Part shown: in pieces, positions 44,586 through 54,788 of the stretch
How positions within the stretch are numbered: position 1 is the first letter of the stretch
Layout of the letters: each line of letters starts with the position of its first letter
Assembly (NCBI GenBank): GCA_009692205.1
Contig: SHZR01000019.1
Coordinates: 1-55,077 of the forward strand
From: Gemmatimonadota bacterium
GTDB lineage: Bacteria > Gemmatimonadota > Gemmatimonadetes > Longimicrobiales > Gaopeijiaceae
Reading direction: 5' to 3'
DNA: 55,077 nt
Notes under the pieces: generated by a model
The model's database searches: none
Seen by the model: only the letters and a program-made list of their open reading frames with translations
What the model was told of the DNA's origin: nothing
Translations under genes and position numbers: made by a program

Positions 44586-46423
44586 CTAACCCAGCCCCGC
44601 CTCTCTCAGCACCCTGAGCGCGACCTCCACGTTCCTGCGCGGCGCGCCCAGGTGGAACCCCTGCACGAGCGGGCGCGCCGCCGCGATCACCTCGAGGGCG
44701 ATCCGCACGCCCTCCTCGCCGGCTGCCTCCGGCCCCGACGCCTCGGCGCGCCTCATCCGCTCGACGACGTTCGCCGGAACGGAGATCCCCGGCACCTCGT
44801 TGGCGAAGAACTCAGCGGTGCGCAGGGAAGGGAACGGCAGAATGCCCGCGATCACGGGCGTGCGGTGGCGTGCGGCGAGCTCCAGGAACGGCTCGAGATC
44901 CGCGACGTCGAACACGGGCTGCGTGACCGCGAAGTCGGCACCGGCCTCGAGCTTGTACGCGAAGCGCTCGAGCTCGAGTGCGCGGTCCTGCGCGCCCTCA
45001 CTCACCTGCACGCCCTGCACGAATTGCGTCGGCGCACCGATGGTCGCGCCGCCCGGATCGACGCCGCGGTTGAGCCCCTGCACGAGATGCGTGAGGCCGA
45101 TCGAGTCGATGTCGAAGACCTCGGTCGCGTCGGGATAGGGCCCGAGCGCAGGCGGATCCCCGCTCACCACGAGCACGTTCCGGAGCCCGAGCGCAGCCGC
45201 GCCGAGCAGGTCCGAGAGCATGGTGAGCATGTTCTTGCCGCGGCACGTGTAGTGCACGACGGCTTCGATGCCCGCCTCGTGTTGCACGAGCGTCGCGGCC
45301 GCGAGCGAGCCCATGCGAATGCGCGAGCGTGCGGTGTCTACGAGCGTGACCACGTCGACCCCGGCAGCGGCGAGCGCGCGTGCGGGCTCCGCGACCTCGG
45401 CGGCGTTCCAGCCGTGCGGCGGCCGGATCTCGACGGATAGCACGAGTCGGCCATCGGCGAGCTTGGCCCCGAGCTTGGATCGGTCCCGGAGCGGCACGGG
45501 CTCGACCGCGGCCCGCTTCTCCACCGCGCGCGGGACGCTCACGCGCGTCGTCGCGGGCCGACCGGCCGCTTCGCCGACGACGTCGCGGATCGCGCGGATG
45601 TGCGCGGGCGTCGTCCCGCAGCAACCGCCGAGGAAGCGCACGCCGTCCTGGATCATGCGGCGCGCGTACTCCGCGACGTACTCGGGGCTGGCGAGGTAGA
45701 TCTGACGGTCGCACACGGTGCGCGGCACGCCTGCGTTCGGTTGTGCCGACAGCGGGGCCGTCGTGGCCTCGGCCATCTCTTCGATGGCGTCGAGCATCAC
45801 GGCGGGTCCCACCGAGCAGTTCAAGCCGATCACGTCGGCGCCGAGGTCGGTGAGAGCGCGCGCGAGGTGCGCCGGGTCGGTGCCGTACGCGGTCTTACCG
45901 TCCGGGCCGACGGTCATCTGCGCGACCACCGGCAGATCGGTCTCCGCGCGCACGGCCCTGTATGCGCACTCGATTTCGGCGAGGTCGGAGAACGTCTCCA
46001 GCACGAAGCCTTCAACCCCGCCCTCGAGGAGCCCGAGGACCTGGCGGCGGAAGTGCGCGGTCGCCTCGTCGCGCGAGGTCGGGCCGTAGGGCTCGATGCG
46101 GATGCCGAGCGGGCCGATCGCGCCCGCAACCGAGGCCCGCGTCCCGACGGCCTCGCGCGCGAGACGCGCCGCCGCGCGGTTGAGCTCCTCGGTGCGCTCC
46201 GCGAGCCCGTAGGCCGAGAGCTTCACGGGGTTCGCGCCGAACGTGTTGGTCTCGACGATCTCGGCGCCCGCGTCCACGTAGTCGCGGTGGATCTGCCTCA
46301 CGAGATCGGGACGGCTGAGCGTCACCTCGTCGTAGCAGACGTTCACGAACACGCCCCGGCCGTAGAGCTGGGTGCCCATCGCGCCGTCGAAGACGTGCAC
46401 GTGTCCGTCGTCGATGAGCCGCC

Positions 46424-46427
<4 letters not shown>
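44586..46427 (-). CDS. Bifunctional homocysteine S-methyltransferase / MTHFR
   Basis: 613 residues. The N-terminal methyltransferase domain (residues 1-300) begins [20 protein letters not shown] and carries the zinc-binding cysteines: GLNCSVGP and [13 protein letters not shown]. The C-terminal MTHFR domain begins near 330 ([11 protein letters not shown]) with [28 protein letters not shown] and [11 protein letters not shown], the flavin and folate region. This is the YitJ-like fusion; the methyl donor may be S-methylmethionine or SAM, with MTHFR supplying methyltetrahydrofolate. The GTG start overlaps the metH stop (GTGA), so both proteins are made from one transcript. Confidence 0.9.
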
Positions 46428-50179
<3,752 letters not shown>

Positions 50180-50435: not shown

Positions 50436-51338
50436 ATGAGCCGATGGCCGCCGCCGCCCCGCCTCGCCGCTGCCTTCTACAAAGCGCACGGTCTGGGCAA
50501 CGATTACCTCGTCTTCGAGGAAGGCGACGACTGGCTCGCGACGCCGAGGGCGGTCCAGGCCGTCTGCGACCCGCACATGGGCGTCGGCTCGGACGGCATC
50601 GTCGCGCTGCTCGCCGCCCGCGCGGGCGGAGTCTTCCGCCTGCGCATGTTCAACCCCGACGGGAGCGAGTTCGAGCGGAGCGGAAACGGCCTCCGCGTGC
50701 TGGCCACCCACCTCGTCCGCTCGGGTCACTCGTCGCCCTACCGTATCGAGGTCGGCGGAGAACGGGTGACCATGCTCGTGCACGCGTCGGCCGGCGGGGC
50801 ACACGACGTCTCGGTGGAGATGGGGCGCGCGCGCATCGGCCCCGCGGCCGTCGAGTTGGACCCACGCGCGCTCGATCCGAACGGGCGGCTGGCTGGCCCA
50901 CACGGCGAGCCGCTCCAGGTCGTGCCCGTCTCGGTCGGAAACCCGCACATGGTCGTCCTCGTGGACACGCCGACGCCGGAGCGGCTCGCGGAGATCGGCC
51001 CGTTCGTGGTCGCGCACCCCGCGCTCGCGCGGGGTGCCAACGTCCAGCTCGCGCGCGCGTCGGGCGCGGCGAACGAGAACGCCTGCGAGGCGCTCATCTG
51101 GGAGCGCGGCGTCGGGCCCACGTCGGCGTCTGGCACGAGCGCGTGCGCCGTGGCGGTCGCGTTGGTGAGCGAGGGTCGGCTTCGGCCCGGCGCTGTCACG
51201 GTGCGCATGCCCGGCGGGACGATGACCGTCACGGTGAGCGAGAGTCTCGACGTGGTCCTGCGCGGACCCGTCGAGGGGGTCTGCGCGGGCGCGCTCACGC
51301 AGGGGTTTCTGGCCGAGCTGTCGCTACTGGGCGGTTAG
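50436..51338 (+). CDS. DapF-fold epimerase lacking both catalytic cysteines
   Basis: 300 residues with full DapF architecture: FYKAHGLGNDYLVFEEG, MFNPDGSEFERSGNGLRVL, VGNPHMVVLVD, ANVQLARASGAANEN, WERGVGPTSASGTSACAVAV. In diaminopimelate epimerase the first catalytic Cys precedes GNG and the second precedes GTG; here those positions are Ser82 and Ser232. Cys237 lies five residues further on. Two cofactor-free proton-transfer thiols are thus missing, so normal racemisation of diaminopimelate is doubtful. It may be a paralogue with another substrate. Start is leaderless (see 50424). No lysine-pathway gene is nearby. Confidence 0.85.
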   Translation: MSRWPPPPRLAAAFYKAHGLGNDYLVFEEGDDWLATPRAVQAVCDPHMGVGSDGIVALLAARAGGVFRLRMFNPDGSEFERSGNGLRVLATHLVRSGHSSPYRIEVGGERVTMLVHASAGGAHDVSVEMGRARIGPAAVELDPRALDPNGRLAGPHGEPLQVVPVSVGNPHMVVLVDTPTPERLAEIGPFVVAHPALARGANVQLARASGAANENACEALIWERGVGPTSASGTSACAVAVALVSEGRLRPGAVTVRMPGGTMTVTVSESLDVVLRGPVEGVCAGALTQGFLAELSLLGG

Positions 51339-51422
51339 ACGAAATGTGCCCCAGAAGGCCGCACCGATCGAACCTACTCCACAGGCCGTCATACGCCGCT
51401 GGCGTGCTCCCGCCACCGTGTG

Positions 51423-51428
51423 TACATT
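51423..51428 (+). promoter_or_regulatory. Putative -10 box, leaderless start of the VapB-like gene
   Basis: TACATT ends 7 nt before ATG 51436, with no ribosome site; CTGGCG is 18 bp upstream as a weak -35. Confidence 0.4.
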
Positions 51429-51435
51429 GTCTTAC

Positions 51436-51672
51436 ATGAGTACGACAGTGACGGTCCGGCTGGACGAACCGCTCCGGGAAGCTTTGGAGGCCCGCGCGCA
51501 GGCCTCCGGCACCACCATCTCCGAGGTCGTTCGCGACACCCTGAGGGAAGCGCTGGCGGAGCGACCGCTCGGTGAGCGCATTGGCCACCTCAAGGGCATC
51601 CTAGAATTGGAGGTTGAAGTGGACGACGATCCTTGGCGCCGCCAGATCAAGGAGCGCAACTGGCGGCCCTGA
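51436..51672 (+). CDS. Ribbon-helix-helix antitoxin (VapB/RelB-like)
   Basis: 78 residues. STTVTVRLDEPLREALEARA is the DNA-binding beta strand and first helix; ASGTTISEVVRDTLREAL is the second. The C-terminal tail (PWRRQIKERNWRP) would wrap around the toxin. It overlaps the PIN-domain gene. Autoregulation of its own promoter is expected. Confidence 0.8.
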   Translation: MSTTVTVRLDEPLREALEARAQASGTTISEVVRDTLREALAERPLGERIGHLKGILELEVEVDDDPWRRQIKERNWRP

Positions 51673-52091
51673 AGCCATGGCTCGTGGACACTGGCCCGTT
51701 GGTGGCCTTTCTCAGCCGGAAAGACCCGGATCACGAGCGCATGAGTGAGGTCCTCGGCGCTTTTCCAGGACGAATGCTCTCGACCGGGGCCGTGGTGACC
51801 GAGGCGATGTTCTTCCTCGCGAAGGCTCGTGTCGGGCCGGCGGCTCTCGCCGAACTCGTCTCCAGCGGGGGCATCGTCATCGTGGACGTATTCCAGCCGT
51901 CGGACCTCCGCGCGGCTGCCCGGCTGATGAGCCGATATGAAGACACGCCCATGGACTTCGCCGACGCGACGCTAGTCCTGACGGGCGAGGCCCTCGGCGT
52001 GCTCGACATCCTCACGCTCGACCGTCGCGGCTTCTCCACGTTCCGAACGAGCAGCGGCGAGCCCTTCCGGCTGGCCCTGGACGCATCCTAA
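51633..52091 (+). CDS. PIN-domain ribonuclease toxin (VapC-like)
   Basis: About 152 residues. Acidic active-site residues: Asp19 (PWLVDTGPLVAFL), Glu57 (VVTEAMFFL), Asp108 and Asp111 (PMDFADATLV), with Asp130 nearby. PIN nucleases cleave tRNA or rRNA when not held by the antitoxin. The start is uncertain: TTG 51633 overlaps the antitoxin by 40 nt; no better ATG exists in frame. Confidence 0.78.
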   Translation: MAPPDQGAQLAALKPWLVDTGPLVAFLSRKDPDHERMSEVLGAFPGRMLSTGAVVTEAMFFLAKARVGPAALAELVSSGGIVIVDVFQPSDLRAAARLMSRYEDTPMDFADATLVLTGEALGVLDILTLDRRGFSTFRTSSGEPFRLALDAS

Positions 52092-52113: not shown

Positions 52114-52279
52114 GGGGCGAGCCTGTACCTCTCTTCCCGGAAGGGGATCGTCGCGGGTGCGACTCCAGGCGGGTCAGACGAGGCCTCTCGACTACGCACC
52201 CGCGCCGTAAGCGAGTCCTAGCCTACTCTCCCCATGAGACGAGCGACCCCTGGAGGGGAGAGAGGTACAGGCTCGCCCC
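52114..52279. repeat. Long inverted repeat between convergent genes
   Basis: Arms 52114-52138 and 52255-52279 (25 bp each) pair at 24 of 25 positions, with a 116-bp spacer holding a second perfect inverted pair GCGGGTGCG/CGCACCCGC. The element fills nearly the whole gap between the VapC-like gene and lptG and touches the lptG stop. Arms resemble those of 29726-29829. Possible bidirectional terminator or mobile palindrome. Confidence 0.75.
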
Positions 52280-53346
52280 TAGGTCCGCACGCGCGCGAGC
52301 AGCAGGAGCGCCGCTCCGAAGAAGAAGATATTCGGCATCCACGCCGCCGACCACGGCGAGATCGCGCCGGCCTCACCCATCGCGCCGGCGAACTTGAGCA
52401 TCATCGTGAAGACGATCACAGTCAGGAGCGAGATGCCGATCCCGAAGGCCGTGCCCCCGCGCTTGCTGCTCGTGGCGAGAGGCGCGCCGAACAGGATGAT
52501 GATCAACGTCGCCACGGGCACGGAGAGGAGCTGGCCGCGACGCACGAGCCACTCGGTCGCATCGCCCCCCGTGCGCTCGAGGATGGCTGCGAGCCTCGCG
52601 ATCTCCGCGTACGTCATCTCTTCGGGCTCGCGGGGCACCTCGAGTAGATCCTCGGGCCTCTCCTTCATCTCCGGCATCGTCATACGCTCGAACTGGACCG
52701 CGCGCTCGGTGCTGTCCGGCAAGAGCGTCCGCATGTAGCCCTGGGCGAGCGTCCACCCCTCGCCCTCGGTCCAGTTTGCGGCCTCCGCAGTCACGTGCGT
52801 CCCGGGGGACTCCGCCGAGGGCGGGCGCTCGAGCACGACGCCCGTCATGCGGCCATCCGAAGCGGTGAGGCGCGTCACCTGCCAGCTGAGCCCGTCCTCG
52901 GAGCGATAGACGAAGTCGGAGCGCCAGGTGCGGCTGGGGCCTTCGGCGCGCTGGATCTGCGCGGCGATGCGGTTCCCACGCGGCACGACTTCGCTCAGCC
53001 CGAGCGCGACCCCGGTCAGCAGGACGCCCAACACCACGAGCGGAGCCATGATGCGGTGGAAGGAGATCCCTCCCGCCTTGGCGGCGACGATCTCGTGGTG
53101 GCGGGTCATCGAGTGGATCGTGAAGATCGTCGCGACGAGCGCCGCGATGGGGAACGCGTACTGGAGGTACTCCGGCATCTTGTAGAGGTACGACAGCGCG
53201 ATCTCGGTGCGGCTGAGCCCGCGGTCGAGGTACTGGTCGAGCCGCTCGGTGAAGTCGCCCAGGATGAAGAGGGGAGGCACCGCGAGCGATACGACCACGA
53301 ACAGCTTCATGAAGCTGCCCACCACCAGGCGGTCGAGCGTGCGCAT
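52279..53346 (-). CDS. lptG: LPS export permease LptG
   Basis: 355 residues. Inner-membrane half of the LptB2FG transporter that extracts lipopolysaccharide. TMs at the N-terminus (SFMKLFVVVSLAVPPLFILG, QYAFPIAALVATIFTIHS) and C-terminus (LLSVPVATLIIILFGAPLAT, FAGAMGEAGAISPWSAAWMP), flanking a periplasmic jellyroll domain. I call it LptG by its place after LptF; the two are paralogues. ATG 53346 overlaps the lptF stop by 1 nt. Confidence 0.85.
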   Translation of the reverse strand: MRTLDRLVVGSFMKLFVVVSLAVPPLFILGDFTERLDQYLDRGLSRTEIALSYLYKMPEYLQYAFPIAALVATIFTIHSMTRHHEIVAAKAGGISFHRIMAPLVVLGVLLTGVALGLSEVVPRGNRIAAQIQRAEGPSRTWRSDFVYRSEDGLSWQVTRLTASDGRMTGVVLERPPSAESPGTHVTAEAANWTEGEGWTLAQGYMRTLLPDSTERAVQFERMTMPEMKERPEDLLEVPREPEEMTYAEIARLAAILERTGGDATEWLVRRGQLLSVPVATLIIILFGAPLATSSKRGGTAFGIGISLLTVIVFTMMLKFAGAMGEAGAISPWSAAWMPNIFFFGAALLLLARVRT

Positions 53347-54788
53347 CAGGATGCCTCCGCCGTGGACCCGAGCTTCCGACCGAGCCTCGCCCGCAGCGAC
53401 TGCCACATCTCGTCGAAGCCGCTCCCTCGGGTATTCACGCTCGCCCGCCCCATGCGTGCGGCGAGTACGATGCCCGCGACGAGGAAGACCACGTTGCTCA
53501 CCCACATCGTCACCGCGGGGTCGGCCACGCGACGGTCGGCGAGGCTCTCGCCGGCGATCAACCCCACCCAGTAGACCGAGAAGATGACCGTGGACGCCGC
53601 GATGACCAGCCCGACGCCGCCGCGCGGGAAACGCAGCGCAAGCGGCGGCCCGATGAGCGTGAACACGATGCATGCGAACGCGATCGCGAGCTTCTTGTGG
53701 ATCTCGACGTTGAAGCGGTTGACCGTCTGTTCGAGAGCGCCCGCCCTTGCTGCTCGAGACCGGGCCTCGGCCGCGACCTCCTGTACCATCGCGTCCCTCG
53801 AGCCCGATGACGTGCTCCGGACGCGCCATCCTCCGATGTCCGCTTCGGTGAACGCGCCGGTCGAGTCCGTCCCAGACGGCTGGTCGAGCGCCACGAGTAC
53901 CGCGCGCATCGCGTCCGTCCGGTTCTCGGTACGCACGCTGTCGAGCTCGGCCTGGCGCTGGTGCGCATTCTCGGACAGGAGCGCGATGCTCATCTCACGA
54001 TCGGAGCGGTCGGATCCGCCGAGGCGCCGCTCGAGCTCGTTGCCCACGCCCCGCAGCGGAATGACCTGCTGCTCGAAGAAGAGGCGCTGGAATCCCCCCT
54101 CTCGGTCGGCCTGCGCCTCGTGCACGACGCCGTCGTAGAGGGTCAGGTAGAGGTCCGTGCGCGCCGCGTTGAACGCCATCTCACCCCGAGCCGCGTACGT
54201 CGTGCGGTGGCGGAGCGGGTCGTTGGCATCGAAGATGGCCACGTTCCCGAGCGTCGCGGACTCGTGGTCGATGCGGTCGGCGGTGAGGAAGTACAAGTCG
54301 CTGCCGCCGCCCGGGCGAAGCTCGTTGACGACCTGCTCGCGCAGCTCCAGGGTCGGGCTCTTGCGACCGATATCCAGGATGAGGTTCTTTAGGGCGTGGT
54401 TCGACTCGGGCAGCACCTTGTCATTGAAGTAGAACATCACCGTCGCGGCGACCACACCCATGCCGACGACCGGCGCCATCATCTGGCGTGGCCGGATGCC
54501 GCCCGCGGCGAATGCGGTGATCTCGTTCGAAGCCGCGAGATCGTTGAAGGCATAGAGCACGGCCACCAACACGGCCATGGGCAGCGCGAGCGCGATGACG
54601 TGAGGTAGCGACAGGACCAGGAACTCGACGATCACTGTCCAGGGCAGTCCTTTGCCCACCAGGTCGCCCACCCTCTGGGAGAGCGAATTCAGGAAGATGA
54701 TCGCGGTGATCCCGGAGAGCGCGAACAAGAACGGGCCCATGTGGACCCTGATCAAGTATCTGGTGAGCACTCCCATGCGCATCCCCAA
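53346..54788 (-). CDS. lptF: LPS export permease LptF
   Basis: 480 residues, longer than the usual 350-390. N-terminal TMs (FLFALSGITAIIFLNSLSQR, ALALPMAVLVAVLYAFNDLA), the conserved cytoplasmic helix NEITAFAAGGIRPRQMMAPV, a jellyroll, and C-terminal TMs (IAFACIVFTLIGPPLALRFP). About 100 extra residues (260-360: helical, Asp/Arg-rich, LLSENAHQRQAELDSVRT) sit in the periplasmic part. ATG 54788, 54779-type Met residues allow small start shifts. The outer LptA/LptD partners are not here. Confidence 0.87.
   Translation of the reverse strand: MGMRMGVLTRYLIRVHMGPFLFALSGITAIIFLNSLSQRVGDLVGKGLPWTVIVEFLVLSLPHVIALALPMAVLVAVLYAFNDLAASNEITAFAAGGIRPRQMMAPVVGMGVVAATVMFYFNDKVLPESNHALKNLILDIGRKSPTLELREQVVNELRPGGGSDLYFLTADRIDHESATLGNVAIFDANDPLRHRTTYAARGEMAFNAARTDLYLTLYDGVVHEAQADREGGFQRLFFEQQVIPLRGVGNELERRLGGSDRSDREMSIALLSENAHQRQAELDSVRTENRTDAMRAVLVALDQPSGTDSTGAFTEADIGGWRVRSTSSGSRDAMVQEVAAEARSRAARAGALEQTVNRFNVEIHKKLAIAFACIVFTLIGPPLALRFPRGGVGLVIAASTVIFSVYWVGLIAGESLADRRVADPAVTMWVSNVVFLVAGIVLAARMGRASVNTRGSGFDEMWQSLRARLGRKLGSTAEAS

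Follow-up and report, generated by a model that had tools for sequence, protein, structure and literature searches.

The forward strand of the window, by which we mean the whole 55,077-nucleotide stretch of DNA that was analysed, contains at positions 50436..51338 a dapF-like gene with an ATG start, whose 300-amino acid product carries serine at both positions that hold the catalytic cysteines of diaminopimelate (DAP) epimerase (DapF). Profile searches and a fold match identified it as a DapF homologue, the only one in its genome. From sequence comparison we consider it fairly probable that this Ser/Ser protein is the sole diaminopimelate epimerase of its order, with serines at both acid/base positions; the proposition that a natural amino-acid epimerase operates with two serines and no thiol, order-wide and in an essential pathway, we regard as evenly balanced. 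In DapF, one cysteine thiolate takes the alpha proton and the opposite cysteine thiol returns one, and such a thiol/thiolate pair is the accepted answer to the problem of removing an alpha proton with a weak base in cofactor-independent racemases. Compared with a thiol, the hydroxyl of serine is by far the weaker acid and ionises much less readily.

A DapF-like protein with serine at both catalytic positions

The translated open reading frame contains the motifs NPDGSEFERSGNGLR, GNPH, WERG and SASGTSACA. The protein scored 176 bits against the TIGR00652 DapF profile (curated cut-off 114.65) and 126.6 bits against PF01678, which was the only family returned by a Pfam scan at E-values up to 1; PF05544, representing the proline racemase superfamily, gave no match. 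The profile for the bifunctional DapF/glutamate racemase of Chlamydia (NF038284) gave 48.6 bits, far below its cut-off of 350. An AlphaFold2 model of the protein (pLDDT 96.5, pTM 0.93) found its best match within the PDB in Anabaena DapF (9mro; Z 32.7 over 262 residues, rmsd 2.2 Å), and Z-scores to the DapF structures 9mro and 1gqz (H. influenzae) ranged from 30.7 to 32.7. The Ser/Ser protein is thus predicted to have the two-domain DapF fold, and it also has in common with DapF its length, a profile score above cut-off, the DAP contacts and the accompanying DAP pathway genes. In the strict sense it is not a DapF, because it lacks the pair of catalytic cysteines, which form part of the PROSITE DapF signature (quoted in PMC8225329).

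Alignment to the solved Anabaena structure (9mro) placed Ser82 (codon at 50679..50681, forward strand) opposite Cys75 and Ser232 (51129..51131, forward strand) opposite Cys224, corresponding to Cys73 and Cys217 of the H. influenzae enzyme. Both positions are serine in 96/96 members of the clade described below. The first-pass annotation had reported that the two catalytic cysteines were replaced by serine in a protein otherwise intact and of normal length, and both the alignment to 9mro and the clade bear this out. The codon for Ser82 is AGC, a plain serine codon that excludes a recoded stop. Among the order sequences, site 82 is encoded by 94 AGY and one TCN codon, while site 232 is encoded by 92 TCN and three AGC codons; the presence of both codon types at both sites indicates that serine itself was retained across codon changes. 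Chance, sequencing error, a pseudogene or recoding can be rejected given 96 intact Ser/Ser relatives with plain serine codons. We likewise reject a shift of the catalytic cysteines to other positions, which the first-pass annotation had named as a finding that would overturn its reading: Cys/Cys DapF proteins usually have Cys44 and Cys237 as well, Cys237 is absent from two members of the clade, and no other clade-specific cysteine was found near Ser82 or Ser232 in the deduplicated alignment.

The genes surrounding dapF are housekeeping genes and gave no clue to function. Upstream on the reverse strand (44586-50179), a full-length MetH of 1251 amino acids adjoins a fusion of homocysteine methyltransferase and methylenetetrahydrofolate reductase (NF006396), whose frame overlaps that of MetH on the same strand. 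Directly downstream on the forward strand (51346-52091), a ribbon-helix-helix protein (RHH_1) is followed by a 136-amino acid protein in a toxin–antitoxin-like arrangement; the latter looks PIN-like by eye and matched no Pfam or NCBIfam family. LptF/LptG permease genes follow on the reverse strand (52279-54788). Of 95 Ser/Ser loci, about 75 have genes of the lptF/lptG type downstream in opposite orientation, and about 45 have metH upstream.

Distribution and ancestry of the serine pair

The genome containing the window is 2.7 Mb in size and 98% complete, and the named genomes closest to it place it in the phylum Gemmatimonadota. All of the closest relatives of its Ser/Ser protein, down to about 40% identity, have serine at both positions. 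The first catalytic site was searched for with a degenerate DNA pattern in 395 Gemmatimonadota genomes, and the counts per order were tallied by hand. The serine version of the motif was detected in 113/120 genomes of the window's order, whereas the cysteine version was detected in none of these 120 genomes compared with 250/275 genomes of other orders and classes. The seven genomes of the order without a match at the first site include fragmented assemblies. Outside the order, the serine-motif match in genome G240 lay in an unrelated open reading frame, which by sequence resembles a beta-lactamase-like hydrolase, and was discarded; genome G339, with another such match, also carries the cysteine motif. 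In the deduplicated alignment, which covers both sites, Ser/Ser was observed in 96/96 sequences of the order and Cys/Cys in 35/35 others, with no mixed pairs. Pairwise identity inside the Ser/Ser set extends down to 30%, and its members carry the taxon labels Longimicrobiales and BD2-11 clade.

A tree was built with the three trait columns masked. Here, the Ser/Ser sequences form one side of a single branch (support 100/99) with a stem of 0.93 changes per column, and the clade lies closer to Cys/Cys sequences from Chloroflexota and Armatimonadota than to DapF of the sister orders of Gemmatimonadota. Across the sequences sampled, Ser/Ser is thereby confirmed as a fixed trait of the whole order, with the Cys pair lost, and not as a one-off. 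The uniform Ser/Ser pair, the single clade and the different catalytic residues also support the suggestion made in the first-pass annotation that these proteins constitute a distinct, apparently unstudied DapF-like (epimerase-like) subfamily. In the literature searched we found no description of a natural Ser/Ser DapF or epimerase, and hence no Ser/Ser homologue already shown to be active, a precedent that the annotation had said would undo its proposal.

The diaminopimelate pathway and the substrate pocket

MurE was found in 33/33 genomes tested, with the DAP-type motif DNPR in every motif recovered. LysA was found in all 25 genomes of the order tested except G018 (the match in G105 was only below cut-off), with the motifs EPGR and CESGD in those order sequences checked, and in many genomes of the order it scored >470 bits, above the sister orders that have Cys/Cys DapF. 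The window's genome further contains DapB and a DapL-like aminotransferase, the latter scoring below the curated DapL cut-offs. On this gene content, the window's genome is predicted to run a DAP pathway that needs an epimerase step. G018 retains the Ser/Ser gene, MurE and the DapL-like aminotransferase with no LysA hit, a pattern expected if the cell wall needs meso-DAP; no statement on the peptidoglycan chemistry of Longimicrobium was found in the open literature searched. LysA and aspartate kinase form a single fusion protein in the window's genus (G000:C7:27745-28791, L177; NF006515, 1141 bits versus 802).

The D-centre of meso-DAP is where canonical LysA works. The product of LL-DAP aminotransferase is LL-DAP, which still requires epimerisation, and to our knowledge DapF is bypassed only by meso-DAP dehydrogenase. 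The first-pass annotation had proposed a search for a second DapF or an LL-DAP aminotransferase. A DapL-like aminotransferase is indeed present, but it was wrongly regarded as a substitute for DapF, since the LL-DAP it would produce must still be epimerised. No second DapF was found in the window's genome, nor in the order at useful scores. Bypass through meso-DAP dehydrogenase was rejected because DAPDH_C (PF16654) had no match in 33 genomes, the C. glutamicum and Bacteroides controls being positive. Asp/Glu racemases (PF01177) and proline racemases were also rejected as replacements, as both families are absent from the window's genome and their occurrence elsewhere does not follow that of Ser/Ser. 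PF01177, which includes MurI, had no match in the window's genome or in nine other genomes of its family (f1), so that the former would need another source of D-glutamate for its peptidoglycan. With a single DapF homologue, no known alternative and the pathway genes in place, the most economical interpretation is that the epimerase step is carried out by the Ser/Ser protein.

Features of the substrate pocket were read from the alignment to 9mro. In Anabaena DapF the ligand is contacted at its proximal end by Asn13, Gly76, Asn77, Gly225 and Thr226, and at its distal end by Asn66, Asn164, Asn197, Glu215 and Arg216 (PMC12039745). All ten of these DAP-analogue contacts are identical in the Ser/Ser protein (N22, N73, G83, N84, N169, N202, E223, R224, G233 and T234). 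On the forward strand, the codons of these kept contacts include that for Asn22 (50499..50501; Asn13 in Anabaena), which contacts the proximal amine, and that for Asn73 (50652..50654; Asn66), a distal contact. Asn169-Pro170-His171 (50940..50948) comprises a distal carboxylate contact (Asn164) together with a conserved histidine, Asn202 (51039..51041; Asn197) is a further distal carboxylate contact, and Glu223-Arg224 (51102..51107; Glu215-Arg216) contact the distal amine and carboxylate. Within the clade, N22, N73, G83, N84, N202, E223 and G233 are conserved in 96/96 sequences, R224 in 95/96 and N169 in 94/96, while position 234 is Thr or Ser. In PddB, a DapF homologue with a shifted substrate, the three distal asparagines are all substituted (PMC8225329), whereas the Ser/Ser proteins keep N73, N169 and N202 (96, 94 and 96 of 96). 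The pocket therefore still looks built for DAP. The first-pass annotation had offered another chemistry or another substrate as explanations; the difference in catalytic residues stands, while another substrate is disfavoured because all DAP contacts are kept. The distal position equivalent to Asn169 is Val or Thr in 20/20 distinct proteins from the sister orders (L131-L150), whose catalytic Cys pair is intact, possibly reflecting altered distal substrate binding.

The differences fixed in the clade are concentrated around the catalytic ends (Ser82, Ser232, Ser235, Arg/Lys81, Gln204, Tyr24 and Ile/Val88), and several of them, in addition to the two serines, separate the protein from DapF. Position 81, immediately before the first site, is Arg or Lys in the clade and Met, Leu, Thr, Ala or Ile in Cys/Cys DapF; position 88, six residues after the first site, is Ile or Val in place of the cysteine of an RC motif. 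Ser235 (51138..51140, forward strand), at i+3 of Ser232, is serine in 95/96 members of the clade and glycine in 35/35 Cys/Cys sequences. The equivalent residue of Anabaena DapF is Gly227, whose backbone NH lies at hydrogen-bonding distance from the thiol of Cys224 (PMC12039745). At i+3 of Ser82 is Gly85, which is invariant and offers no side chain.

Proposed serine-based epimerisation and its alternatives

As the order's epimerase, the Ser/Ser protein would convert LL-DAP to meso-DAP and so supply MurE and LysA. Protons would be transferred at the two faces of the alpha carbon as usual, with serine side chains replacing the Cys thiol/thiolate pair. Ser235 would help to position or polarise Ser232, and compensating changes, namely Ser235 and perhaps Arg/Lys81, would make serine workable. 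We infer that the protein binds DAP and epimerises it, that both serines take part in catalysis and that Ser235 has this supporting role; the change from Gly to Ser at i+3 of Ser232 fits such a serine-based epimerase.

Other natural enzymes show that a hydroxyl residue can do the work on one face. Within the proline racemase superfamily, 4-hydroxyproline epimerases use a Ser/Cys pair in which Ser93 is identified as one catalyst of the two (PMC4113996). In the Ser/Thr trans-3-hydroxyproline dehydratase, the residue at i+3, Asn93, holds the catalytic Ser90 through both its side chain and its NH, an arrangement proposed for every superfamily member that has serine there (PMC4113996). These enzymes share with the Ser/Ser protein a two-domain fold and a natural catalytic serine; however, the partner of their serine is Cys or Thr, their substrates contain a proline ring and identity is low. 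By analogy, we infer a parallel between Ser232/Ser235 and Ser90/Asn93 at the second site only. The Cys/Thr Asp/Glu racemases EcL-DER and MMP0739 naturally carry a hydroxyl residue in place of one catalytic Cys (PMC8142540). They resemble the Ser/Ser protein as cofactor-independent racemases with a natural hydroxyl replacement, but belong to a different fold family and have a single Cys replaced, and EcL-DER is one-directional.

A further case was found on phage-associated contigs (L261:1971-2804, L262:1947-2810 and L263, the last two encoding the same protein), where DapF retains Cys at the first site and has Ser at the second. These proteins, at about 31–33% identity, are another natural case in which one catalytic cysteine has been lost. 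In their second-site motifs (LASGSSSCA and LASGSCSCA) the residue at i+3 is Ser or Cys rather than Gly, such that, as in the Ser/Ser protein, a second-site serine is accompanied by a side chain at i+3. The link between the two thus appears outside the window's order too.

Against a serine epimerase count the near-inactivity of engineered Cys-to-Ser mutants and the weak acidity of the hydroxyl, as well as the below-cut-off score of the DapL-like aminotransferase and the lack of a side chain at Gly85. Cys-to-Ser single mutants of PddB have <0.1% activity left (PMC8225329), <0.1% is also reported for Cys-to-Ser M. tuberculosis DapF (as cited by PMC8225329), and turnover of HisR C67S and C209S is greatly reduced (PMC11602996). 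The same mutants speak for the main alternative, in which the Ser/Ser protein has ceased to be an epimerase and binds DAP or an analogue in a sensing, allosteric or scaffold role, with meso-DAP made by an unrecognised, unrelated enzyme. Loss of both thiols on one long stem (0.93 changes per column) would fit lost chemistry, and the DapF active-site mutants 2q9h and 2q9j show that the fold can be kept. However, Ser/Ser is held without exception across deep divergence, where a dead site would be expected to vary, and no candidate replacement was found (DAPDH_C, a second DapF, or an Asp/Glu or proline racemase). The suggestion of the first-pass annotation that another gene makes meso-DAP thus finds no candidate among known families, and we consider an unknown enzyme family, together with a non-epimerase role for the Ser/Ser protein, to be unlikely.

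Less likely still, the protein catalyses some other transformation at the alpha carbon of DAP or of a similar compound, such as an isomerisation or a beta-elimination in which one of the serines serves as the base. A serine at one site goes with either epimerase or dehydratase activity in the sister superfamily (PMC4113996), and a Cys-to-Thr change converts an epimerase into a dehydratase (PMC8142540). The changes peculiar to the clade around the site (R/K81, Q204, Y24 and S235) fit such a reaction, but the DAP pocket has not changed in its distal half, the neighbouring genes (metH, lptF/lptG) are housekeeping genes rather than a dedicated catabolic or biosynthetic cluster, and meso-DAP would be left without a source. 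It is very improbable that the order needs no meso-DAP, with MurE and LysA using LL-DAP and the epimerase site free to decay or change: LL-DAP walls do occur in some actinobacteria and the DNPR motif of MurE is silent on the stereoisomer, but LysA of the order keeps its canonical motifs, often at >470 bits, and the DAP pocket is kept, not decayed.

Automatic annotation will label the gene dapF and leave its missing catalytic residues unflagged. An order-wide Ser/Ser DapF with an intact pocket offers a ready comparison enzyme for cofactor-independent racemases, and inhibitors of DapF that target thiols would not affect it, a point of relevance to DapF as a drug target. If the Ser/Ser protein is the epimerase, it would show that the DapF fold can do without the thiolate/thiol pair that has long been considered essential to it; if it is inactive, meso-DAP must be made in the order by a route yet to be discovered, an equally novel outcome.
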